The position numbers were made by a program, and so were the translations under genes. A stretch of 48,600 bases of DNA, taken from assembly GCA_020628085.1 (NCBI GenBank), contig JAHDFQ010000011.1, positions 1 through 48,600 of the forward strand. The letters run 5' to 3'. This DNA is from Saprospiraceae bacterium. Lineage in GTDB: Bacteria; Bacteroidota; Bacteroidia; Chitinophagales; Saprospiraceae. The notes under the pieces were generated by a model. It was not told where the DNA came from. It searched no databases and worked only from the letters and a program-made list of their open reading frames with translations. Within the stretch, counting starts at the first letter, position 1. Every line of letters begins with the position of its first letter. Below are positions 11,338-26,484 of the stretch, in pieces.

Positions 11338-12576
11338 TTAAATGAGCATTTCAAAAAGCATAGGATTGGCATTAAGCGACTGAAAATCAATATTGTTTTC
11401 GTGCATTTTTTTTGTCAACGCATTGTAATCTTCCTTTTTTCGTAATTCTATACCCACTACAGCAGGGCCAGAACTCCTATTATGTTTTTTTGTATATTCA
11501 AAATAAGCAATGTCATCATTTGGTCCCAAAATAGAAAGAAACTCTAACAATGCTCCTGCACGTTGAGGAAAACGTATAATAAAATAGTGTTTGAGTCCTT
11601 CATAGAGTAGTGATCGCTCCTTTATTTCTTCTGTTCTTGTAATATCATTGTTCCCACCACCGATCACACAGACCACATTTTTACCTTTTATTTCTTCTTT
11701 ATAATAATCCAAAGCAGCAATGGACAGCGCACCCGCAGGCTCTGCAATAATGCCTTCCTCGTTGTATAATTGTAGGATAGTCGAACAGACTTTTCCTTCA
11801 GGAATCAATACTATATCTTCAACGACTTTCTCACAAATTTGAAAGGTTAAATCGCCTACTTTACGGACAGCCGCACCATCTACAAATGAATCTATACTAT
11901 CTAAGACAACTGGTTCACCTTGCTTTCGAGACATATACATAGCAGGCGCACCCTTAGGCTCTACGCCGATAATTTTCGTCTGTGGACTCATTTGTTTGAA
12001 GTAACTCCCTAAACCAGAAGCTAGTCCGCCACCTCCAATAGCTACGAATATATAATCAATAGGCGTATGACTATCTTCTATAATTTCTAAACCAACGGTA
12101 CCTTGTCCTTCTATGGTTTTAGGATCGTTGAAAGGATGAATAAACGGTTTGTTTTGAGCTTCTGATAGTTCTAAAGCAGCTTGATAAGCATCATCAAACG
12201 TATCACCTGTTAGCACTACTTCAACACTCTCTTTTCCAAAGAATTTGACTTTATTGACTTTTTGTTTTGGAGTAGTATTAGGCATATATACTATACCTTT
12301 TACGCCTAATTTACGACAAGCCAGGGCAACGCCTTGTGCATGATTTCCTGCACTTGCACATACAACACCATTAGCTGTGAAAGCGGAATCAAGTGTAGAT
12401 ATTTTGTTGTATGCACCTCTGATTTTGTAAGAACGTACAACCTGTAAATCTTCACGTTTAAATGAAATATTGGCATCATAAATCTCAGAAAAATTAAGAT
12501 TTTGAAGCAAAGGCGTGTGTGTAACAATCGTTCTCAAACGAACTTTTGCTTTGTAAATATTTTCTACACTAATCAT
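11338..12576 (-). CDS. ilvA: Threonine dehydratase (threonine ammonia-lyase), IlvA
   Basis: 412 residues. This PLP enzyme converts threonine to 2-oxobutanoate, the first committed step to isoleucine. The PLP lysine is Lys51 in SYKIRGA, the phosphate-binding loop is AIGGGGLASGLG, and CASAGNHAQG is the typical substrate-region motif. After about residue 325 there is a single ACT-like regulatory domain (YFIIRFPQRAGALLEFL). That makes it shorter than the 514-residue E. coli enzyme with two such domains and closer to the roughly 420-residue single-domain form. It is the last gene of the ilv operon, 95 bp after ilvC, and that gap is filled by an imperfect palindrome. Confidence 0.95.
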   Translation of the reverse strand: MISVENIYKAKVRLRTIVTHTPLLQNLNFSEIYDANISFKREDLQVVRSYKIRGAYNKISTLDSAFTANGVVCASAGNHAQGVALACRKLGVKGIVYMPNTTPKQKVNKVKFFGKESVEVVLTGDTFDDAYQAALELSEAQNKPFIHPFNDPKTIEGQGTVGLEIIEDSHTPIDYIFVAIGGGGLASGLGSYFKQMSPQTKIIGVEPKGAPAMYMSRKQGEPVVLDSIDSFVDGAAVRKVGDLTFQICEKVVEDIVLIPEGKVCSTILQLYNEEGIIAEPAGALSIAALDYYKEEIKGKNVVCVIGGGNNDITRTEEIKERSLLYEGLKHYFIIRFPQRAGALLEFLSILGPNDDIAYFEYTKKHNRSSGPAVVGIELRKKEDYNALTKKMHENNIDFQSLNANPMLFEMLI

Positions 12577-12671: not shown

Positions 12672-13718
12672 CTAATTATTCTCAGGACGAAGTCCACGAA
12701 CGACACGACCTGCTTGCCACATTTCGCTTTCGTGTAATTCTGCCAATTCTTTATCTAATTTTTCACGGTAGTCTGGTTGACTATTGGAGTCAATAGAACG
12801 CTGTGCCTCTTCACCCGAAGCAACGCTGTCATATAAATCCTTAAAAACAGGAGCTACGGCATCACGGAATTTATTTTTCCAATCTAAGGCCCCACGCTGA
12901 GCAGTGGTTGAACAATTGGCATACATCCAGTCCATCCCATTTTCTGCTACTAAAGGCATTAATGATTGCGTTAATTCTTCCACAGTTTCATTAAAAGCTT
13001 CGCTAGGAGAGTGTCCCCTTTTTCGTAATTCATTGTATTGTGCTTCAAAAATACCTTGGATACAACCCATGAGTGTTCCACGTTCACCAGTCAAATCACT
13101 ATATACTTCCTTTTTGAAATCTGTCTCAAATAAATAACCTGATCCGATACCCACACCCATCGCAACGACACGATCAAATGCACGACCTGTTGCGTCTTGG
13201 AAAATAGCATATGATGAGTTTAGCCCTCGTCCTTCTAAAAACATTCTACGTAAACTCGTACCAGAACCTTTAGGTGCTGCCAATATTACATCAATATCAT
13301 CAGGAGGAATGATACCTGTGCGCTCTTTGTAAGTAATACCGAAACCATGAGAAAAGTACAGTGCTTTTCCTTTTGTTAATAATGGTTTGATGGTTGGCCA
13401 TACCGCAATTTGTGCGGCATCAGATAATAAATATTGAACAATGGTTGCTTTTTCAACTGCTTCTTCAATAGAAAATAATGTTTCACCTGGAACCCATCCA
13501 TCAGCAACGGCTTTGTCATACGATGCAGAAGGACTGCGTTGTCCAACGATAACATTGAATCCGTTATCTCTTAAATTTAATGATTGACCTGGCCCTTGAA
13601 CACCGTAGCCAATAATTGCAATAGTTTCGTCTTTGAGCACCTCTAGTGCTTTTGATAATGGGAATTCTTCACGGGTAACGACATTTTCTTCGACGCCACC
13701 AAAATTCATCTGTGCCAT
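12672..13718 (-). CDS. ilvC: Ketol-acid reductoisomerase, IlvC
   Basis: 348 residues. It converts 2-acetolactate or 2-aceto-2-hydroxybutyrate to the dihydroxy acids with Mg2+ and NADPH, in isoleucine/valine synthesis. The Rossmann motif is GYGVQG (residues 37-42). The coenzyme loop GQRSPSASYDKA carries an Arg and several Ser, consistent with NADPH. The Mg-binding DLTGERGTLMG helix and the ANCSTTAQRGALDW segment of the knotted domain are present. The GYGVQGPGQSLNLRDNG form is the Bacteroidota variant, intermediate in length between class I (about 330) and class II (about 490) enzymes. It lies 42 bp after the metzincin-like gene. Confidence 0.95.
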   Translation of the reverse strand: MAQMNFGGVEENVVTREEFPLSKALEVLKDETIAIIGYGVQGPGQSLNLRDNGFNVIVGQRSPSASYDKAVADGWVPGETLFSIEEAVEKATIVQYLLSDAAQIAVWPTIKPLLTKGKALYFSHGFGITYKERTGIIPPDDIDVILAAPKGSGTSLRRMFLEGRGLNSSYAIFQDATGRAFDRVVAMGVGIGSGYLFETDFKKEVYSDLTGERGTLMGCIQGIFEAQYNELRKRGHSPSEAFNETVEELTQSLMPLVAENGMDWMYANCSTTAQRGALDWKNKFRDAVAPVFKDLYDSVASGEEAQRSIDSNSQPDYREKLDKELAELHESEMWQAGRVVRGLRPENN

Positions 13719-14666: not shown

Positions 14667-15209
14667 CTAATTCAATTCCGCTTCCTTTTCCAATGATTTC
14701 AAGTATTCATTTAACTGTTCCATTGGTTTAGTAACGGCAACCCGTCCAGAACGTACAAATTCGTAAATACCTAATTTTTCCAAATCACGAAGTAATGCAT
14801 TCGTTTCTTCTACATGACCCGTTTTTTCAATGATAATATAATCGGGTTCGATGCTCAAAATGCGAGCATTATGCGAACGAATGATCGCCTCGACGGTATC
14901 ACCTTCCGCAAAAATGGAAGAAGGAACTTTATACAAAGCAATTTCTTGATAAACGATTTCTCGATTATTATAATAGAATGCTTTCAATACATCAACTTGC
15001 TTATCAATTTGTGCCACCAATTTTCGGACTTGCGTTTCCGTCACATTGACCACAATCGTAAAGCGATACACATCTTTCATGGATGCTTCTGACGTATTTA
15101 AACTCTCAATGTTGATATATCGGCGGGTAAATACTGATACGATCCGATTTAATAAACCGACTTTATTTTCCGAAAAAATCGAGATCGTATATTCTTTATT
15201 TTTTTCCAT
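14667..15209 (-). CDS. ilvN: Acetolactate synthase small (regulatory) subunit, IlvN/IlvH
   Basis: 180 residues, the normal length for this subunit. The N-terminal ACT domain (about residues 5-80) opens with YTISIFSENKVGLLNRIVSVFTRR, containing the glycine-loop region that binds valine in relatives. A second half (about 90-175) corresponds to the C-terminal domain of IlvH-type subunits. It activates the IlvB catalytic subunit and confers valine feedback inhibition. It follows ilvB by 141 bp, the longest gap inside the operon; that gap is AT-rich and I see no promoter or terminator in it. Confidence 0.95.
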   Translation of the reverse strand: MEKNKEYTISIFSENKVGLLNRIVSVFTRRYINIESLNTSEASMKDVYRFTIVVNVTETQVRKLVAQIDKQVDVLKAFYYNNREIVYQEIALYKVPSSIFAEGDTVEAIIRSHNARILSIEPDYIIIEKTGHVEETNALLRDLEKLGIYEFVRSGRVAVTKPMEQLNEYLKSLEKEAELN

Positions 15210-15350: not shown

Positions 15351-17096
15351 CTACTCTAAACGAATTTCGCTCACCGAACAACCACTAGGAATCATCGGAA
15401 ATACATTTTCTTCTTTTTCGACCATTACATGTAAGATATACGGGCCATCAAAGTTTAGCATTTCCTGTACAGCACTTTCCAACTCATCAGTATGTGTAAT
15501 TTTCTTTCCAGTAACTCCAAAGCCTTCGGCAATTTTGATGAAATCTGGGTTTTGTAATTCTACGGCAGAATAGCGTTTGTCAAAAAACAACTGTTGCCAT
15601 TGTCGAACCATACCTAAGAAATTATTATCCAAAATAACGATCTTTACACCAACATTATATTGCGAACACATGCCCAATTCTTGCAAAGTCATTTGAAAAC
15701 TCCCATCACCAATAAAAGCAACGACTTCTCGTTCTGGCTGAGCATACTTAGCACCAAAAGCAGCAGGAAGTCCATAACCCATCGTACCAGCGCCACCAGA
15801 ACTAACCCATTGATTAGTAGAGAGATAGTTGTAATAGCGAGCTGCCATCATTTGGTGCTGACCAACATCCGTTGTGACAACGGCTTGCCCTTTAGTTTGA
15901 TTAGAAACTTCATGGATGACTTGTCCCATTCTGATTTGACCTTTGGAATTAGGACTTAAATCACGCTCGATGACTTTTTCTTTTTCAATACGGGCACATT
16001 CATGAAATTCCGATAACCATTCGGGGTATTCTTTCTGATTAACCAAAGGTAGAAGTGCTTCTAAAGCTAATTTTGCATCGGAATGTAAAGGTACATCTGC
16101 TTTTACATTTTTATTTATCTCTGAAGAATCAATTTCAATATGAATAACTTTGGCTTGTTTTGCATATCGACTCAAATCACCTGTAACGCGATCATCGAAA
16201 CGCATCCCTATGGCAATCAGCACGTCACATTCATTGGTTTTAATATTTGGACCGTAATTTCCATGCATACCTAACATGCCTGTATGTAATGGATGATCGG
16301 ATGGAATTGAAGATAAGCCATGAATGGTACAACCTAAAGGGATTCCCGTTTTTTCTACAAAAGCTTTGAACGCATCTTGTGCATGAGCAATTTGAATACC
16401 GTGACCAGCCAGAATAAATGGCTTTTTAGCACTATTGATAAGTTCAGCAGCATCTCTTACGGATCGCATTGAAGGTTTTGCTAATGGTTGATAAGAACGA
16501 ACAAATTTTAGAGGATTATATTCAAAATCCAACATTCCCAACTGTGCATCTTTCGTAATATCAATCAAAACAGGCCCTGGGCGTCCAGAATTTGCGATAT
16601 AAAATGCTTTAGCAAAAACTTCTGGAATTTCTTGTGCATTGATAATCTGATAATTCCATTTTGTGATGGAGGTCGTACAACCGATTACATCTATTTCTTG
16701 AAAAGCGTCAGATCCTAATACATGGCTGAAAACTTGACCCGTGATGGCAACCATCGGAACGGAATCCATCATGGCATCAGCAATTCCAGTAATCAAATTC
16801 GTAGCACCTGGTCCAGATGTAGCCATACAGACACCCGTTTTACGAGTGACACGTGAGTATCCTTCAGCAGCGTGTGTCGCACCTTGTTCGTGGCGTGGCA
16901 AGATGTGATTCAATTGGTCTTGATAATAATATAGTTTATCATAAACAGGCATGATTGCGCCGCCAGGATAACCAAAAATAGTATCAACACCTTCTGCGAT
17001 CAGACATTTTAAAACAGCTTCTGCACCATTAATAGTATCTGTTTTATTTATAACGTTGGAAGTCATCGTATTGGACTTCATATTAGAATCTTTCAT
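15351..17096 (-). CDS. ilvB: Acetolactate synthase large (catalytic) subunit, IlvB
   Basis: 581 residues. A thiamine diphosphate enzyme that condenses two pyruvates, or pyruvate with 2-oxobutanoate, for valine/leucine and isoleucine synthesis. The catalytic Glu70 lies in [13 protein letters not shown]. The [13 protein letters not shown] motif, the central FAD-binding domain and the ThDP motif GDGSF...NN (in [14 protein letters not shown] to [13 protein letters not shown]) are all present. Several Met codons lie in the first 11 residues (1, 6 and 11), so the exact start is uncertain by up to 10 codons. It lies 36 bp after ilvD. Confidence 0.96.
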
Positions 17097-17132: not shown

Positions 17133-18815
17133 CTAAAACTCATCAGTTACACAGCCTTCACTTGCAGAGGATACTGTTTTGCTATATTTTCTTAAAATTC
17201 CACTACTAGCAGGAATTTCTGGAGCTGTCCAATTGGCTTGTCGTTTAGAAATTTCTTTCTCCGATAAATCAACATTCAGTACATTTTGTTTGGCATCAAT
17301 AATGATTTTATCCCCATCTTCAAGTAAAGCAATCATGCCACCAACTTGTGCTTCAGGAGTAACATGTCCCACCACAAAACCATGTGTTCCACCCGAAAAA
17401 CGTCCATCGGTTATCAATGCTACAGAATTGCCTAGACCTGCGCCCATAATAGCTGATGTTGGTTTGAGCATTTCTGGCATTCCAGGCGCTCCTTTAGGTC
17501 CAGAGTATCGAATGACAATGACATGACCCATTTTAATCTCTCCATTAGCAATAGCTGTGTTCGCGGCTTTTTCAGAGTTAAAAACTTTTGCTGTTCCTTC
17601 AAAAACTTCTCCTTCTTTTCCTGTAATTTTAGCAACGGATCCTTCAGATGCAATATTTCCATATAAAATCTGTAAATGACCTGAAGCCTTAATTGGATTT
17701 GAGAAAGGGTAGAGGACTTTGGTAGATAAATCAATCGGATCAATATCGGCTAAGTTTTCAGTAACTGTTTTTCCAGTAACCGTCAAACAATCACCATGTA
17801 AATAACCTTCGTCCAACATATAGCGCATTACTGCTGGTGTTCCACCGACTTTAAATAAATCCTCCATTACAAATTGTCCACTTGGTTTTAAATCTGCCAA
17901 GAATGGAGTTTTATCACTAATTCGTTGAAAATCATCAATAGTAATATCAACATCAACTGATTTGGCCATGGCAATAATATGTAAAACAGCATTGGTCGAG
18001 CCACCTAAAACCATGATTAACGAAATAGCATTCTCAAATGCCTTTTTCGTCATAATGTCTCGTGGTTTGATATCATTTTCAAGTAAGTACTGAATAGCAT
18101 CACCTATCCGTCCACATTCTTCTTTTTTATTAGAACTAACGGCTGGATTTGAAGAGGTGTGTGGTAAACTCATACCAAGCGCTTCGATTGCAGATGCCAT
18201 GGTATTAGCCGTATACATTCCTCCACAAGCACCTGGACCGGGGCAAGCTTTTTGAATAACTGCTTTGAAATCATCTTGAGTTATTGAACCGGCAATTTTT
18301 TGTCCCAATGCTTCAAAAGCAGAGACGATGTCCAGTTTTTGATCGTTATGACAACCTGGTGCGATTGTTCCTCCATAAACAAGTATACTTGGTCGGTTTA
18401 GTCTACCTAGAGCCATAATAGCACCAGGCATATTTTTATCACAGCCAACGACTGTTACTAACCCATCATACCATTGAGCAGAGGCAACCGTTTCAATAGA
18501 ATCTGCAATAATATCCCGTGATGGCAATGAAAAGCGCATTCCAGAAGTTCCCATAGAAATACCATCACTCACACCAATGGTATGAAAAATTAATCCAATC
18601 AATTCTTGACGATTAACGCTAGCTTTTATATCTTTTGCTAGATCATTCAAGTGCATATTACATGGATTACCTTCCCATCCAGTACTAACAATACCAATTT
18701 GTGGTTTCTTTAAATCTTCTGTACTCAAACCAATAGCATGAAGCATGGCTTGTGCTGCTGGTTGTGTATCGTCTTGTGTAACGTGTTTGCTATATTTATT
18801 TAATTCTTTACTCAT
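17133..18815 (-). CDS. ilvD: Dihydroxy-acid dehydratase, IlvD
   Basis: 560 residues. An Fe-S enzyme that dehydrates dihydroxy acids to 2-oxo acids, the third common step of isoleucine/valine synthesis. The three likely cluster cysteines are Cys52 (NPCNMH), Cys125 (GCDKNMPG) and Cys197 ([10 protein letters not shown]). The [14 protein letters not shown] segment holds the conserved active-site serine. It is the first structural gene of the operon and is preceded by the leader peptide and attenuator at 18857-18988. The 5' region after the terminator (18816-18856) carries no obvious Shine-Dalgarno sequence, as is usual in Bacteroidota. Confidence 0.96.
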
Positions 18816-18856: not shown

Positions 18857-18900
18857 AACAAAAAAGCCGTTCTCAACTAAATGAGAACGGCTTTTTTGTT
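18857..18900 (-). terminator. Attenuator terminator upstream of ilvD
   Basis: A perfect 19-bp stem, 18857-18875 with 18882-18900, and a 6-nt loop. Its GC-rich core (GCCGTTCTCA paired with TGAGAACGGC) runs on the transcribed strand into TTTTTTGTTT, so it is a strong intrinsic terminator in the ilv direction. It lies between the leader-peptide stop (20 nt upstream) and ilvD (41 nt downstream), not at the end of an upstream gene. That placement marks it as an attenuator. Confidence 0.9.
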
Positions 18901-18922
18901 AAATGTTTAACACCTATCCTCA
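18882..18922 (-). promoter_or_regulatory. Antiterminator alternative to the ilv attenuator
   Basis: The transcript segment UGAGGAUAGGU, which starts at the leader stop codon (18922 down to 18912), can pair with GCCGUUCUCA, the first arm of the terminator (18891 down to 18882): ten pairs including three G-U, with one bulged A. The two structures exclude each other. A ribosome reaching the stop codon would cover the antiterminator arm and let the terminator form. A ribosome stalled on Ile/Val codons would leave it free. Base pairing is read from the sequence; the mechanism is inferred by analogy with ilv attenuators of enterobacteria. Confidence 0.7.
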
Positions 18923-18988
18923 TTGCATTATTGGTACAATAATGACAACGACAATAATAATAACATTTACAATAAAGTTTGCTTGCAT
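18920..18988 (-). CDS. ilv operon leader peptide
   Basis: A 22-codon ORF with ATG at 18988-18986 and TGA at 18922-18920. Residues 6-20 read IVNVIIIVVVIIVPI; the whole peptide has seven Ile and six Val and no Leu. This composition and position (followed by a strong terminator and then ilvD) are the marks of a branched-chain amino acid attenuation leader, comparable to IlvL of E. coli, which in addition contains Leu codons. Lack of Leu codons fits an operon without leu genes. The ORF is too short for normal gene finders. A hairpin of 8 bp (18926-18944) lies within codons 15-21. Confidence 0.88.
   Translation of the reverse strand: MQANFIVNVIIIVVVIIVPIMQ
18926..18944 (-). promoter_or_regulatory. 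Hairpin inside the leader-peptide codons
   Basis: A perfect 8-bp stem with a 3-nt loop (CATTATTG, TAC, CAATAATG on the transcribed strand) overlaps the last Ile/Val/Pro/Ile codons of the leader. It sits immediately before the antiterminator arm. It may work as a pause hairpin that synchronises polymerase and ribosome; this role is inferred. Confidence 0.5.
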
Positions 18989-18992
18989 GGCA

Positions 18993-19023
18993 CAAATATG
19001 AATCTTCTTTTTGAGTATTGCAA
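18993..19023 (-). promoter_or_regulatory. Putative ilv operon promoter, possibly leaderless
   Basis: On the minus strand, TTG (19023-19021), 20 bases, then CATATTTG (19000-18993), one base off the Bacteroidota -7 consensus TAnnTTTG. The spacing is identical to three other strong candidates in this window. The last G of the -7 box is only 5 bases from the A of the leader ATG, so the predicted transcript start falls at or within a few bases of that ATG, and the leader peptide would be read from a leaderless mRNA. Confidence 0.6.
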
Positions 19024-19092
19024 GTTTTAAAGAATAAAAAATTACAATATTTGCCAAATAGAGAAAAGGACACTAATATGATAAACGAGCTA

Positions 19093-19369: not shown

Positions 19370-20005
19370 TTAAAATTTTGGTGGAATGACATTTTTAAAA
19401 TGACCATTCATCTGCGCCTTCTTTCGCAGTAATTCCATTTCACGAACGACAGGAATTAAGCTTTCCAAATGTTTTAACATGTAAATTTGTCGCTCTTTTT
19501 CAGATGAAATAGACAATAGTTTATATTCCTGTTCTAAAGAAAATCCTACATGATGTGCCATATCGAAAGTAGAAAAGCTAGTGGGACTTTGAGGAACAGA
19601 TTTTTCTATATTTAGTATTCTAAACAAATCAATAATCTTCTTTAGAATGCTATCATACATCAAAATATCGCCATTGTTTAGATTTTTGAGGCGTTCTATA
19701 TCTGCACCTGCATATAATTTATTGGGCGCAACAGAATAAAATTCTTCAATTTTAAAGACCCCAATTCCTTTGGTTTTGATATCCATTTCACCATTATCAC
19801 CAACCTTACTAATTTCTTCAAGTCGTAGTTCTGTACCAAAAGTAGACACTTTATTATCAATGAAAGCAGGAATACCAAAGGTCACTCCATTTTGGTCACA
19901 TTCTCGAACGAGTTGTTTATATCTAGGTTCAAAAACATGAAGATTTAGGCTTTCACCAGGGAAAACAACCAGTTTTAAAGGAAATAAAGGCAAAAAATCA
20001 GTCAT
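19370..20005 (-). CDS. LON substrate-binding (N-terminal) domain protein
   Basis: 211 residues formed by a single LON N-terminal domain: FLPLFPLKLVVFPGESLNLHVFEPRYKQLVREC at residues 4-36 is the classic opening (LPLFPL, VVFPG, LHIFEPRY). A helical C-terminal half (about 115-205) ends with charged residues. There is no ATPase or Ser-Lys protease domain, so it is a stand-alone member of the family found in many bacteria, probably a substrate adaptor or sensor; its function is not established. It ends 16 bp beyond the U-run of the convergent RNA gene. Confidence 0.88.
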   Translation of the reverse strand: MTDFLPLFPLKLVVFPGESLNLHVFEPRYKQLVRECDQNGVTFGIPAFIDNKVSTFGTELRLEEISKVGDNGEMDIKTKGIGVFKIEEFYSVAPNKLYAGADIERLKNLNNGDILMYDSILKKIIDLFRILNIEKSVPQSPTSFSTFDMAHHVGFSLEQEYKLLSISSEKERQIYMLKHLESLIPVVREMELLRKKAQMNGHFKNVIPPKF

Positions 20006-20145
20006 ATATTTTTATAGAATCTTATTGTTCTCAATCTAATTTATTATTTTACAACAATATTTTAACCAACATGTTTGTTTGGATAAAGTCGAAAGTTAAG
20101 AACAAATTCGGAATAATCAATTTAGATTACTCAAAATCGAAAACC

Positions 20146-23100
20146 ATGGAAAACAACACCTTCTTTAAAACGCCAATCCTTGGCTTTTTATTCATTGTAT
20201 TCTGTTGCCTCATGCAATTTGCTTGCAATAAACAACAGGAAGCCAAACAAATGTCCGCAGAAGCATACAATTATATATATGCACATACATCTGGAACAAT
20301 TTCTAAGGCTGATCCAATTCGAGTTCGTTTTACAAAACCAGTCGTCGCAGATTCATTATTGAATACACTGGTATCATCCAATTTATTAAGTTTTAATCCG
20401 AGTATAAAAGGTGAAAGTCGCTGGGAAAATAGCCAAACGTTATTGTTTGAGCCAACAGGGAAATGGGCTTCAGGAGCAAATTACATAGCCAAACTTAAAT
20501 TGGCAACTCTATTTGATGATGTTCCAAAGTCGTCTTCAAATATAGAGTTTGATTTTAAAATCATTGAGTTGGTTTATGATGTAGACATTAAAGGATTGAG
20601 CGCTATTAATAAAAGTGATTTGTCAAAGCAAGAACTAGAAGGTGTTGTCAACGTGTCCGATGTTGTAGAATCTGAAAATATTGAAAAAATTATTTCAGCA
20701 AAACAAGGAAATCGAGATTTACCTATTCGCTGGAATTTCAATTCTTCTAAAAATAAGCACACCTTTTATGTGACAGATATTCGTCGGGAACAAACACAAG
20801 ATGGTGAAATTACAATTAATTGGAATGGAAGTTCTATTGACGTAGAAACCAAAGGAAGTCAGACTTACTCCGTTCCTGCTTTGAATAATTTTAAGGTAAT
20901 GAAAACGGATATATTTCAAGGAGCGGAACAGTACTTGAGTGTTCATTTTTCTGATCCATTATTACAAAATCAAGAAGTGAAAGGCCTGATCCAATTGGGT
21001 AGTTTGTCCGATGATGACTTACGGTTTGATATTGAAAATAATATTTTAAAAATATATAGTACTACTCGTTTAGTGGGAGATTATAAATTAATTGTTCGAG
21101 AAGGGTTGAAAAATTCTAACGGAATGAAAATGAGGGATTTGAGTGAATGGAACTTGACTTTTATGGACGTTAAGCCTGCTGTTCGATTAGTTGGACAAGG
21201 GGTTGTAATGCCAAACTCCGATGGTTTGATCTTTCCATTTGAAGCAGTGAGCCTAAATGCCATTGATGTCGAAATATTCAAGATTTTTGACAATAATATT
21301 CTTCATTTTCTACAATCCAATAATTTACAAGGCTCAAATAATTTAGAACGCGTTGGTAGAATTATCTTTCAGAAAAAAATAGAATTAAAAGACATTGACC
21401 CCAAAGCACAATTCTATAATTGGAGACGATATGCTATCAATTTAGCCGACCTCATCGAGACTGACCCAAATGCTATTTATCAAGTACGCATTGGTTTTAA
21501 GCCAAATTATTCTACTTATGTATGTGACAAAAATAAAAACAATAGCGAAAACGAAAATGTGGAAGATGACTATTACGAAGGAGATTATTTTGGGGATGAA
21601 TACTATGATGAAACCTTAGCTTTTGATCGTGAAGAAGAATACACGAGTATTTGGGGCGGCTATTATGGAGTCGCTGGCTATTATCGTGGTTTTAATTGGA
21701 AACATCGCCAAAATCCATGTTATCCTGCTTATTACAACTACGAAAATTTTGTTCGTAGTAACGTCATCGCTTCTAATTTGGGTTTAATTGCCAAGGGTGG
21801 AGACGATGGTTCAGTTATGGTTGCCGTTTCCGATATTAAAACAACACAACCTGTTTCGGGTACAAATTTACTGTTTTACGATTATCAAAATCAGCTGATA
21901 AAATCTATTAAAACAGATTCAGAAGGGATGGCAGAAGTCCAATTGAATCGTAAGCCGTTCGTTGTTGTTGCAGAAAAAGGATTACAAAAAGGCTACCTTA
22001 AAATGGGTGATGGCAATGCTCTATCATTAAGTAAATTTGATGTTGCAGGGGCTCGCTCGCAAAAGGGATTAAAAGGATATATTTATGCCGAACGAGGCGT
22101 TTGGCGACCTGGCGATTCTATTTATTTGAACTTTATTTTAGAAGATGAAAACCGGCAATTACCATCTAATTATCCCGTTTCTCTAGAAATGTATGATCCT
22201 CGTGGACAGTTGCAGTATAAAACTACAAGTTCTGATAATATTAACGGATTATATGGATTTACCACTCAAACGAACGTAGATGATCCCACTGGAAACTGGT
22301 CAGTTAATATCAAAGCTGGTGGAGCATCTTTTAATAAAACACTAAAAATTGAAACCGTTAAACCCAATCGTTTAAAGATCAAACTAGATTTTGGTGAAGG
22401 TGATTTGATGACTGATGCTAATGGAAAAATCAACGGACAATTGGAATCTAAATGGTTGCATGGCGCACCTGCGAAAGGTTTAAAAGCAAAAGTAGAAGTG
22501 CAATTAGGGGATAAAAACACACGGTTTGAAAATTATAAAAACTATGTTTTTGATGATCCTACAAGAAGTTATCGTAATCAAAATGCTAAAGTTATTTTTG
22601 ATGAAGAACTCAATGAAAATGGTCAGGCTACCATAAATACAGACGTTTCTTCTACCTACGCAGGTAAAATGCGAGCTAATTTTAAAGTTCGGGTCTTTGA
22701 AAAAGGCGGAGATGCTAGTATCAATACATTTTCCAAAACATACAGTCCGTATAGTGCTTATGCAGGTATAAATATTCCGCAAGACAAATACGGTCAACGT
22801 CGTTTAAAGGTTAAAGAATCAACACCGATTGACTTGGTAGTCGTTGATGCCGAAGGAAAACCATTAAGTGGAAAAGCAGTTAGTGTAGGTTTATATAAAA
22901 CAAATTGGCGGTGGTGGTGGGATCGAAGTTCAGATAATGTTTCTCGATATAATTCTAATAATCATATCGGTTCCTTACAAAAAGAATCATTGGTTACTCA
23001 AAATAATGGAAAAACAAAATGGAATGTTAAAGTTGATACTTGGGGACGATATTTAGTTCGTGTTTGTGATGAGGAAACAGGGCATTGCGCAGGTGCTTAT

Positions 23101-25806
23101 TTTTATGCAGGAAATCCATGGAGCGACGGAGAGGTCAATCGAGAGCAAGCATCTATTTTGGCTTTTTCTGCTGATAAAGAAAAATATAATGTTGGTGAAA
23201 CAGTTCAGTTGAAAATTCCAACTGGCGAAGCAGGAAGAGCATTGATTTCCATAGAATCGGGTTCAAAAGTAATAGAAACTTATTGGATGGATGCCAAGAA
23301 AGGGGAGAACACCTTTAGTTTTTATGTGACTCCAGAAATGACGCCAACTGTATATGCCAATGTGAGTTTGATACAACCTCATGCACAGGTTAAAAATGAT
23401 TTACCTATACGAATGTATGGTGTGATTCCCATAAATGTTGAGGATAAAGAGACCAAATTATATCCTAAAATTCAAATGCCTGACGTGCTTAAACCTGAAC
23501 AAAAAGTTCAAATTAAGGTCTCCGAAGATAATGGAAAAGCGATGGCATATACTATAGCAATGGTGGATGATGGATTATTAGATTTGACAAATTTTAAAAC
23601 ACCTGATCCGTGGAATACTTTTTATGCACGAGAAGCTTTAGGTGTCAAAACGTGGGATTTATACGATCAGGTGTTGGGTGCTTTTGGTGGTGAACTAGAA
23701 AGCGCACTAAGTATTGGTGGTGATGGTGAAGAAGTACAATCTCCTGAGGGCAAAAAAGCAAATCGTTTTGAACCCGTCGTACGACATTTAGGACCTTTTT
23801 ATTTAGAATCTGGTTCAACGGCAACCCATGAAATCGTGATGCCCAATTATGTAGGCTCGGTTCGGACGATGATCGTTGCTGCAAACAAAGGAGCTTATGG
23901 AAACATGGAAAAAACAACTGCTGTTCGTAAACCATTAATGATCTTAGCAACCTTGCCAAGAGTCATCGGTCCTGGTGAATCTCTAGCATTACCCGTTAAT
24001 GTTTTTGCAATGGAAGATAAGGTCAAAAATGTTGAAATTACGGTAGAGGAGATTAGTGGATTAGTTGATTTTGATGGTACTAACCAACAGAGCATTCAAT
24101 TTTCTAAACCCGACGATCAAATTGTAGATTTTGCTTTAAATGTTGGAGAACAAGTCGGAATCGCTACCTTTAAAATCACTGCAAAAGGTGGGGGCGAAGT
24201 AGCATCGCAAGAAATTGAAATAGACGTCCGAAATCCAAACCCTTACATTACAAATGTAGAACGTTCAGTTGTCAAGGGTGGTGAAGACTGGACTACTAAT
24301 TTTGAACCAGTCGGTATGAAAGGTACAAATACAGGCATCTTAGAAGTGTCTAATTTACCGCCCATTGATCTAGGTAAACGCCTAGATTATTTGTTGCGGT
24401 ATCCGTATGGTTGTCTAGAACAGACGACTTCCAAAGGTTTTCCATTGCTTTATTTAGACCGTTTAGTAGAATTGACCGATCAGCAAAAAACAGAAGTGCC
24501 TAAAATTATTGATGCGACAATTGAACGACTCAGACGTTTTCAACAAAGCGATGGAAGTTTATCCTATTGGCCAACGAGTCGTCGTTATTACAATGGCTGG
24601 GCAGGTAATTATGCTGGTCATTTTTTAGTCGAAGCGAAAAAACTAGGCTATACCGTTCCTGATTTATTCTTTGATCGTTACATTAAATTTCAAAAGAAAT
24701 ATGCCCGTAAATGGGATCCTGAAACCAATGCTATGGGTATGTATCGACACAATAGTGATTTAGAACAAGCCTACCGATTATATATTTTAGCAGCCGCTCA
24801 ACAACCTGAATATGGTGCGATGAATCGTCTACGAGAGATGCCAAAACTATCCAATTCCTGTAAATGGCGTTTGGCAGCCGCTTATGCGGTAAGTGGAAAA
24901 CCTGAAGTAGCACAACAAATTATTGACGATTTAAGTAAAGAGGTCGATAACTACACCGAATTGTCCTATACATTTGGATCAAGTTTACGTGATCGAGCAA
25001 TGATAATTGAAACCTTAGTCATATTAAACGATCAAGCAGGTGCAATGGAATTGGTAGAAGTGATTTCTGATCAAATTTCTAGTAATCGTTGGTGGAACAC
25101 TCAAGCCTTAGCTTTTTCTTTTGTCGCTATTGGAAAATTAATTGGGGATAAATCCCTGCAAAAAGGATTCAATTTTTCCTATCAAATAGGAAATGAACCC
25201 ATCGTTAATGCGGGTTCTGAAAATCCGTATATGCAGATAGAAGTACCGATTGACGGAACAAATAACCGAAAAGTATCTGTTACCAACCCCAATAATAATG
25301 TCTTGTTTGCTCGATTGATTACAACGGGACAACCCTTAGTGGGCGATCAAAATTCGACCTCTAGTCATTTAGAAATTTCGGTTCAATACAAAGATATGAA
25401 TGGTGGTTTGATTGATCCCCAACAAATAGCTCAAGGTACAGATTTTATAGCTGAAGTGAACGTTACTAATCCAGGTTCTAAAGGTAAAGATTACAAAGAA
25501 ATGGCATTGACTCAAATATTCCCTTCTGGTTGGGAAATTATCAATAGTCGGATGGATAATCTATCAAATAATGAAGTGAACGACAACGCTAATCAGTATA
25601 CCTATCAAGACATTAAAGATGATCGGGTAAATACTTTTTTTAATGTTCGACAAAATAAACAACAGACGTATCGTATTCAACTCAATGCTGCTTATGAAGG
25701 ACGATTTTATTTGCCAACGACGGCTTGTCAAGCCATGTACGATAATACGATCAGTGCAAGCAAGGCAGGAAAATGGGTAGAAGTAGTGATGCCAGGTGCA
25801 TTATAA
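20146..25806 (+). CDS. Alpha-2-macroglobulin family lipoprotein with thioester
   Basis: About 1886 residues from the ATG at 20146. This start is preferred over the in-frame ATG at 20071 because it puts a lipoprotein signal at the N-terminus (hydrophobic 10-26, lipobox QFAC with Cys27). The protein is a chain of macroglobulin beta-domains; an MG2-like domain (GYIYAERGVWRPGDSIYLNF) lies near residue 640-670 and the MG7/alpha-2-macroglobulin core follows at about 1200. The thioester motif YGCLEQTTS has Cys1423, then an alpha-helical TED domain rich in Trp/Tyr. Such proteins trap proteases covalently at the bacterial surface. An acidic Tyr-rich insert (about residues 465-510) is a Bacteroidota feature. 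Unlike the common arrangement, no pbpC follows; alkD does. Confidence 0.92.
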   Translation: MENNTFFKTPILGFLFIVFCCLMQFACNKQQEAKQMSAEAYNYIYAHTSGTISKADPIRVRFTKPVVADSLLNTLVSSNLLSFNPSIKGESRWENSQTLLFEPTGKWASGANYIAKLKLATLFDDVPKSSSNIEFDFKIIELVYDVDIKGLSAINKSDLSKQELEGVVNVSDVVESENIEKIISAKQGNRDLPIRWNFNSSKNKHTFYVTDIRREQTQDGEITINWNGSSIDVETKGSQTYSVPALNNFKVMKTDIFQGAEQYLSVHFSDPLLQNQEVKGLIQLGSLSDDDLRFDIENNILKIYSTTRLVGDYKLIVREGLKNSNGMKMRDLSEWNLTFMDVKPAVRLVGQGVVMPNSDGLIFPFEAVSLNAIDVEIFKIFDNNILHFLQSNNLQGSNNLERVGRIIFQKKIELKDIDPKAQFYNWRRYAINLADLIETDPNAIYQVRIGFKPNYSTYVCDKNKNNSENENVEDDYYEGDYFGDEYYDETLAFDREEEYTSIWGGYYGVAGYYRGFNWKHRQNPCYPAYYNYENFVRSNVIASNLGLIAKGGDDGSVMVAVSDIKTTQPVSGTNLLFYDYQNQLIKSIKTDSEGMAEVQLNRKPFVVVAEKGLQKGYLKMGDGNALSLSKFDVAGARSQKGLKGYIYAERGVWRPGDSIYLNFILEDENRQLPSNYPVSLEMYDPRGQLQYKTTSSDNINGLYGFTTQTNVDDPTGNWSVNIKAGGASFNKTLKIETVKPNRLKIKLDFGEGDLMTDANGKINGQLESKWLHGAPAKGLKAKVEVQLGDKNTRFENYKNYVFDDPTRSYRNQNAKVIFDEELNENGQATINTDVSSTYAGKMRANFKVRVFEKGGDASINTFSKTYSPYSAYAGINIPQDKYGQRRLKVKESTPIDLVVVDAEGKPLSGKAVSVGLYKTNWRWWWDRSSDNVSRYNSNNHIGSLQKESLVTQNNGKTKWNVKVDTWGRYLVRVCDEETGHCAGAYFYAGNPWSDGEVNREQASILAFSADKEKYNVGETVQLKIPTGEAGRALISIESGSKVIETYWMDAKKGENTFSFYVTPEMTPTVYANVSLIQPHAQVKNDLPIRMYGVIPINVEDKETKLYPKIQMPDVLKPEQKVQIKVSEDNGKAMAYTIAMVDDGLLDLTNFKTPDPWNTFYAREALGVKTWDLYDQVLGAFGGELESALSIGGDGEEVQSPEGKKANRFEPVVRHLGPFYLESGSTATHEIVMPNYVGSVRTMIVAANKGAYGNMEKTTAVRKPLMILATLPRVIGPGESLALPVNVFAMEDKVKNVEITVEEISGLVDFDGTNQQSIQFSKPDDQIVDFALNVGEQVGIATFKITAKGGGEVASQEIEIDVRNPNPYITNVERSVVKGGEDWTTNFEPVGMKGTNTGILEVSNLPPIDLGKRLDYLLRYPYGCLEQTTSKGFPLLYLDRLVELTDQQKTEVPKIIDATIERLRRFQQSDGSLSYWPTSRRYYNGWAGNYAGHFLVEAKKLGYTVPDLFFDRYIKFQKKYARKWDPETNAMGMYRHNSDLEQAYRLYILAAAQQPEYGAMNRLREMPKLSNSCKWRLAAAYAVSGKPEVAQQIIDDLSKEVDNYTELSYTFGSSLRDRAMIIETLVILNDQAGAMELVEVISDQISSNRWWNTQALAFSFVAIGKLIGDKSLQKGFNFSYQIGNEPIVNAGSENPYMQIEVPIDGTNNRKVSVTNPNNNVLFARLITTGQPLVGDQNSTSSHLEISVQYKDMNGGLIDPQQIAQGTDFIAEVNVTNPGSKGKDYKEMALTQIFPSGWEIINSRMDNLSNNEVNDNANQYTYQDIKDDRVNTFFNVRQNKQQTYRIQLNAAYEGRFYLPTTACQAMYDNTISASKAGKWVEVVMPGAL

Positions 25807-25809
25807 ACG

Positions 25810-26484
25810 ATGCGAATGAATACTTATTTAAATGAAAGTAAATCACTTTTTGAGCTACATTCAAATACTGAAAATGCAGAGAAGATGGCGCAGTATATGC
25901 GCCATCAATTTGAGTTTTATGGAATAAAAGCACCTTTACGGAAAGAATTGTTAAAGGAACTAGAACAAAAGCAAGGACGTCTTAAAGGGTCGGATTTGAT
26001 GGAGTTTGTACAAGCCGCTTGGGAAGAACCACAGCGAGAGTTACAATATCTAGCCATGGATCGGATGGATAAGGTAAAACGTCAATTAAATCTTGATTTT
26101 TTATCTATTTTGGAATACTGTATTGTCCACAAATCTTGGTGGGATTCGGTAGATTGGTTGGCTATCAATGGAATTGGAACTATACTTAAAAAACATCCTA
26201 AATACATTCAGAAATATAACGAAAAATGGATTAGTTCTGATAATATTTGGTTGAATCGAACAGCTATATTATTTCAATTGAAATACAAAGATCAAACGAA
26301 TATTGATTTGCTATTTTTTAATATCTTGGCAGTTTCAAATTCCAAAGAATTTTTTCTTCAAAAAGCCGCAGGTTGGGCACTCCGACAACTATCAAAATCC
26401 AATCCTTTATTAGTAAATGATTTTATTCAAAACCATATTTTACCACCATTAACTGTTCGTGAAGGAAGTAAATATTTAATATAA
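25810..26484 (+). CDS. alkD: AlkD-type DNA glycosylase (HEAT-repeat)
   Basis: 224 residues, all alpha-helical HEAT-like repeats. The key AlkD residues are present: Trp111, Asp115, Arg150 and Trp189 in the motifs KSWWDSVDWLA, IWLNRTAILFQ and KAAGWALRQ. Counted from the in-frame Met3 (25816) these become 109, 113, 148 and 187, the same numbers as in the B. cereus enzyme, which may favour that start. The family removes N3- and N7-alkylated purines from DNA. The first ATG is only 3 bp after the stop of the alpha-2-macroglobulin gene, so it is likely co-transcribed and translationally coupled, although the functions are unrelated. Confidence 0.9.
   Translation: MRMNTYLNESKSLFELHSNTENAEKMAQYMRHQFEFYGIKAPLRKELLKELEQKQGRLKGSDLMEFVQAAWEEPQRELQYLAMDRMDKVKRQLNLDFLSILEYCIVHKSWWDSVDWLAINGIGTILKKHPKYIQKYNEKWISSDNIWLNRTAILFQLKYKDQTNIDLLFFNILAVSNSKEFFLQKAAGWALRQLSKSNPLLVNDFIQNHILPPLTVREGSKYLI

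Follow-up and report, generated by a model that had tools for sequence, protein, structure and literature searches.

The window, a 48,600-nt stretch of DNA from a Saprospiraceae bacterium, carries a run of isoleucine and valine biosynthesis genes on the minus strand, in the order ilvD-ilvB-ilvN-(ORF without a family match)-ilvC-ilvA (Table 1). Taken together, the identified genes of the run account for Ile and Val synthesis, and no leu gene adjoins them. The N-terminus of the ORF between ilvN and ilvC resembles a signal peptide by eye. A short Ile/Val-rich leader ORF and a strong hairpin precede ilvD. The next gene upstream encodes a LON-domain protein (PF02190) on the same strand and ends at 19370. 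Because 470 nt separate this end from the hairpin, the leader is probably transcribed from a promoter of its own. Further away, on the plus strand, the window encodes a bacterial alpha-2-macroglobulin of 1911 aa (20071-25806); the gene after it, at 25810-26484, encodes a member of the DNA-alkylation-repair family (PF08713).

Table 1. Features of the ilv leader region, genes of the ilv run, and further leaders of the same genome.
Feature	Position	Strand	Evidence or remark
-33-like element CTTG	19021..19024	-	20 nt before the -7 box; motif match only
-7 box CATATTTG	18993..19000	-	TAnnTTTG consensus, one mismatch
Leader ORF MQANFIVNVIIIVVVIIVPIMQ, then stop	18920..18988	-	direct reading, codon enrichment, counterparts in relatives
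Protector hairpin, 1:2-type	18914..18957	-	Ile/Val codons pair with antiterminator strand (folding)
Antiterminator strand AATGAGGATAGGT	18912..18924	-	partner 18891-18880, 12 bp, -12.2 kcal/mol
Terminator 5' arm AACAAAAAAGCCGTTCTCA	18882..18900	-	reading, folding, covariation
Terminator 3' arm with U-run TGAGAACGGCTTTTTTGTT	18857..18875	-	reading, folding, covariation
ilvD, dihydroxy-acid dehydratase, first structural gene	17133..18815	-	NCBIfam TIGR00110, 735.8 bits (cut-off 618)
ilvB, acetolactate synthase large subunit	15351..17096	-	TIGR00118, 729.4 bits
ilvN, acetolactate synthase small subunit	14667..15209	-	TIGR00119, 107.1 bits (cut-off 56.9)
ORF, 289 aa	13761..14630	-	no NCBIfam or Pfam match
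ilvC, ketol-acid reductoisomerase	12672..13718	-	TIGR00465, 321.6 bits
ilvA, threonine ammonia-lyase	11338..12576	-	TIGR02079, 636.7 bits
His leader (hisG), L209	contig C14		MIFQQLHHHHFHLVAWAR
Phe/Tyr leader (pheA), L208	contig C4		MLFLTCSSFYFCFYFIYGRP
Trp leader (trpE), L206	contig C280		MNLNTYTNCWWHNLTP

Leader ORF, terminator and promoter

The leader ORF consists of ATG, 21 further codons and TGA. Its 22 codons include seven for Ile, six for Val and none for Leu, with the main Ile/Val run at codons 9-18. The chance of at least 13 Ile/Val among about 22 codons is approximately 8e-7 against the protein background of the window and 3e-6 against intergenic base composition, so that p is on the order of 1e-6. 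The terminator sits 41 nt ahead of ilvD, and all 19 positions of its stem are paired around the loop TTTAGT. Folding of the 136-nt strand yields -50.9 kcal/mol (z = -9.3), a value equalled by none of 200 shuffles. The evidence for the stem comes from direct reading and folding, because a generic promoter/terminator scanner did not include the ilv terminator in its output list.

The antiterminator strand pairs with the first terminator arm better than expected from shuffled sequences (z = -2.8, p = 0.015; p = 0.007 in a repeat; overall about 0.01). The original prediction had described a 22-codon leader with seven Ile and six Val codons and a perfect 19-bp intrinsic terminator, and both were confirmed. 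It had also placed the stem 20 nt after the leader and had the antiterminator arm begin at the leader stop codon. The short gap and the pairing with the first terminator arm stand, but the stop codon lies 19 nt before the stem and the paired strand begins at 18924, two nucleotides earlier than the stop codon.

The Bacteroidota sigma-A consensus is TTTG / TAnnTTTG (PMC7366714), and the -7 box is assigned to positions -12 to -5 in a Flavobacterium psychrophilum transcriptome study (PMC9723704). Because of this assignment, the motif predicts a transcription start at 18988, which is the A of the leader AUG. An upstream sigma-A box with a spacing of precisely 4 nt to the leader AUG is found in the window (18988-19000), at the trpE leader of the same genome (L206, near 1978) and at the leader start of a relative's pheA (L122). 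Leaderless leader mRNAs are thus predicted from sequence at these three sites, and may possibly occur there.

Competing helices and the stall-position switch

Three alternative helices can form in the leader RNA. These are the protector hairpin, the antiterminator helix between the stop-codon strand and the first terminator arm, and the terminator helix between both terminator arms. The antiterminator and terminator are mutually exclusive, and this competition is conserved by covariation. For the protector hairpin, a codon-order test gave z = 2.0 in the window leader and a mean z of 0.8 over 46 leaders, which suggests that most short leaders favour it, unlike the long leaders before ilvE in Pedobacter and Chitinophagaceae.

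To model the switch, a ribosome was placed at each codon in turn, its edge assumed to lie at +15 nt, and the RNA that it did not cover was folded. With the A-site at codons 9-17, 12-15 antiterminator pairs are formed, and 13 at codon 18. None is formed with the ribosome at codon 22 or at the stop codon, which locates the switch between codons 18 and 22. In this occupancy folding, a stall at the control codons thus leads to the antiterminator, and a ribosome at the stop codon to the terminator. Once the RNA is complete, the terminator invariably has the greater stability and is thermodynamically far stronger than the antiterminator. For this reason, the switch must be kinetic and decided during transcription. 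The choice is likewise made during transcription in textbook attenuators.

Occurrence and coevolution in relatives

For comparison, 80 ilvD loci from other genomes were used, several of which are MAG contigs. The leader-terminator unit is present in 42 of these loci, either upstream of ilvD or preceding an ilvE-like gene, under analyst-chosen detection thresholds that differ slightly between scripts. The hosts include Saprospiraceae, Flavobacteriaceae, Cyclobacteriaceae, Chitinophagaceae, Pedobacter and one Ignavibacteriae MAG. Within 450 nt before ilvD, an ORF rich in Ile/Val/Leu codons with a terminator behind it occurs in 27/80 loci and in none of 800 dinucleotide-preserving shuffles, a null that does not model shared ancestry. 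An independent phylum-wide draw found the unit in 19/69 ilvD upstream regions, and in 12/15 in one family outside the class of the window. Many Bacteroidota genomes do not carry the unit at ilvD.

The leaders precede the first gene of the run, which can be ilvD or ilvE, with ilvE assigned by TIGR01122 at two loci. The control set of other genes gave 16 matches in 187 and is therefore not a clean negative. Its matches are probably true leaders, because the matching units precede ilvE-like genes (two confirmed by TIGR01122); 12 of the 16 were listed and inspected. In several Saprospiraceae ilv leaders (e.g., L003, L010, L015, and L006), a conserved GGTATATA string directly follows the antiterminator strand.

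The arms of the competing helices coevolve. In 29 of 36 ilvD units, antiterminator pairing is better than in 95% of shuffles. Across 42 non-redundant units, antiterminators prefer their own terminator arm, with a mean of -14.1 kcal/mol compared to -9.3 kcal/mol with the arms of other species. Not one of 20,000 permutations matched this preference (z = -11.6), in a test that compares pairing across species and treats related units as independent. The antiterminator of the window is only moderately specific, its own arm ranking 9th of 42. In 16 hand-registered units, both competing helices show compensatory changes, each at 6/8 positions. The counts were taken from a hand-registered table because MAFFT alignments of the units mis-registered the antiterminator in several rows; this table is biased towards structure, and the registration-free permutation test is the cleaner evidence. 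The original prediction had proposed alignment of ilvD upstream regions from related Bacteroidota to look for conserved Ile/Val leader ORFs and covarying terminator/antiterminator arms. Both were found, with Leu codons also contributing to some of the leaders.

Judged from few counted loci, the amino acids of the leader seem to follow the genes of the operon. The Leu-free leader of the window precedes Ile and Val genes. Leu-rich leaders are found in L081 and in Pedobacter L073 and L077, where leuA is apparently located downstream in the same direction, a linkage for which contig identity was inferred from numbering. In the Pedobacter locus L073, a Leu-rich leader (915-1176) precedes ilvE and a separate Ile-rich leader precedes ilvD in one cluster, as also observed in L077-L080.

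The genome of the window encodes additional leaders, each followed by a terminator, before hisG, pheA and trpE. Their antiterminators are less clear in the same shuffle test (p = 0.03, 0.06, and 0.11, respectively), those of the Phe and Trp leaders being weak. Relatives likewise have His leaders before hisG and Phe leaders before pheA. No leader was seen upstream of leuC, leuA and thrA in this genome.

Attenuation and its alternatives

Ribosome-mediated attenuation is a textbook mechanism. In the E. coli ilvGMEDA and ilvBN leaders, a peptide rich in pathway residues is combined with alternative 1:2, 2:3 and 3:4 hairpins and a terminator before the structural genes. The window shares the pathway-rich leader, the alternative hairpins and the terminator. 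It differs in the absence of Leu codons from the leader, in the gene order ilvDBN-CA, and in its Bacteroidota sigma-A type promoter with a predicted start on the leader AUG.

We consider it highly probable (about 0.93) that a ribosome-mediated transcription attenuator of the classic trp/ilv type controls the ilvDBN-CA run. The translation-coupled ilv attenuator put forward in the original prediction is supported by the conserved leaders, the coevolving arms and the stall-position switch. By this mechanism, a ribosome would start on the leader AUG as the AUG leaves RNA polymerase. With ample Ile-tRNA and Val-tRNA, it would reach the stop codon and cover the antiterminator strand, so that the terminator hairpin forms and transcription ends before ilvD. 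Under Ile or Val shortage, the ribosome would stall at codons 9-18, breaking the protector hairpin and leaving the antiterminator strand free to capture the first terminator arm, and transcription would continue into ilvD. If the leader is not translated, the protector hairpin and the terminator should both form, resulting in low basal expression. The anatomy, its conservation and the coevolution are direct results of the analysis, and ribosome stalling, termination and the amino-acid response are inferred.

The hairpin could instead only terminate upstream transcription, with the Ile/Val-rich ORF as a by-product of AT-rich DNA. The terminator does lie between two same-strand genes, and the region is approximately two-thirds A+T, which favours ATT codons. 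Nevertheless, this explanation is very improbable given the distance to the end of the upstream gene, the joint occurrence of leader and terminator in over half of the comparison loci, their absence from shuffled ilvD upstream regions, and the coevolution of the antiterminator arms with the terminator. A metabolite-binding riboswitch or a T-box with an intrinsic terminator, in which the ORF would be incidental, also fits the presence of a terminator and of an alternative structure upstream of it, and a weak riboswitch candidate before ilvD has been proposed in Veillonella (PMC8632094). However, no Rfam family, including RF01692 and RF00506, exceeded its gathering threshold at default settings in the window or any of 15 loci used for comparison, and at permissive thresholds the best match in the window was Thr_leader with 32.8 bits against a cut-off of 55. 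The unit alignment contains no conserved aptamer-like core besides short antiterminator-linked strings; what is conserved is an ORF with pathway-matched codons together with competing arms. A riboswitch or T-box is therefore extremely improbable. In addition to attenuation, the terminated RNA of approximately 130 nt might double as a trans-acting small RNA, or the peptide might have a function of its own, as in the precedent of rnTrpL / peTrpL in S. meliloti (PMC7298713). We regard such an added role as unlikely, and a conserved function of the peptide is at odds with the leader peptides of relatives, whose sequences vary without constraint except in the Ile/Val run.

A likely earlier survey is reportedly that of Lopatovskaya et al. 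2010 (Mol. Biol. 44:128). The Rfam family Bacteroid-trp (RF01692; listed in PMC2864571) is also a leader-peptide RNA in Bacteroidetes, but it is trp-specific and is not matched by the ilv leader; against this family, the trpE leader of the same genome reaches 35.8 bits, short of the cut-off of 49. The authors of the 2021 F. psychrophilum transcriptome report strong clues to attenuation by leader peptides ahead of operons for amino-acid biosynthesis, and 5' elements that are conserved at pheA and at hisG, whereas the main text names no ilv element and contains no coevolution analysis (PMC9723704). In the same species, the leader MTTNTIIIIISIIIRSFE and a terminator were found before an ilvE-like gene (L051). 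Branched-chain attenuators outside the Proteobacteria reportedly include the Corynebacterium ilvBNC leader and a Leu-rich attenuator of S. aureus (PMC10272879, PMC11857589, PMC5794164); these belong to other phyla than the window and are likened to it by description only. A search of the open-access literature found no description of a Bacteroidota ilv leader element, which does not prove its absence. The novelty implied by the original prediction is nevertheless weaker than it had suggested, since leader-peptide attenuation in Bacteroidota was already represented by RF01692 and F. psychrophilum. The ilv element is a well-supported addition to a known attenuator class that is little documented in this phylum.

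A mechanism best known from Proteobacteria would thus be conserved, with coevolving RNA arms, in a core biosynthetic pathway of a phylum whose mRNAs do not carry classical Shine-Dalgarno sequences. The aligned units are a first basis for an Rfam family, and the element would offer Bacteroidota genetics a simple switch that responds to amino acids. It would also allow study of how translation and transcription are coupled when Shine-Dalgarno sequences are absent. More tentatively, Bacteroidota may use Shine-Dalgarno-independent attenuation in general (ilv, his, phe, and trp in the present case), with some leaders being leaderless from a 5' AUG and some operons carrying two units in series. Two leader ORFs in series, each with its own terminator, precede one operon in L013 (2320-2629), L043 (2525-2998) and L048 (2714-2998). 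Tandem leader/terminator units are also found in L214, 700 nt before ilvD, and at pheA in L123 and L126. Together with the leaderless leader ORFs, tandem attenuators (L013, L043, L048 and L214) are possible newer features of the class. If they operate as such, read-through of stacked units would need two successive starvation decisions.
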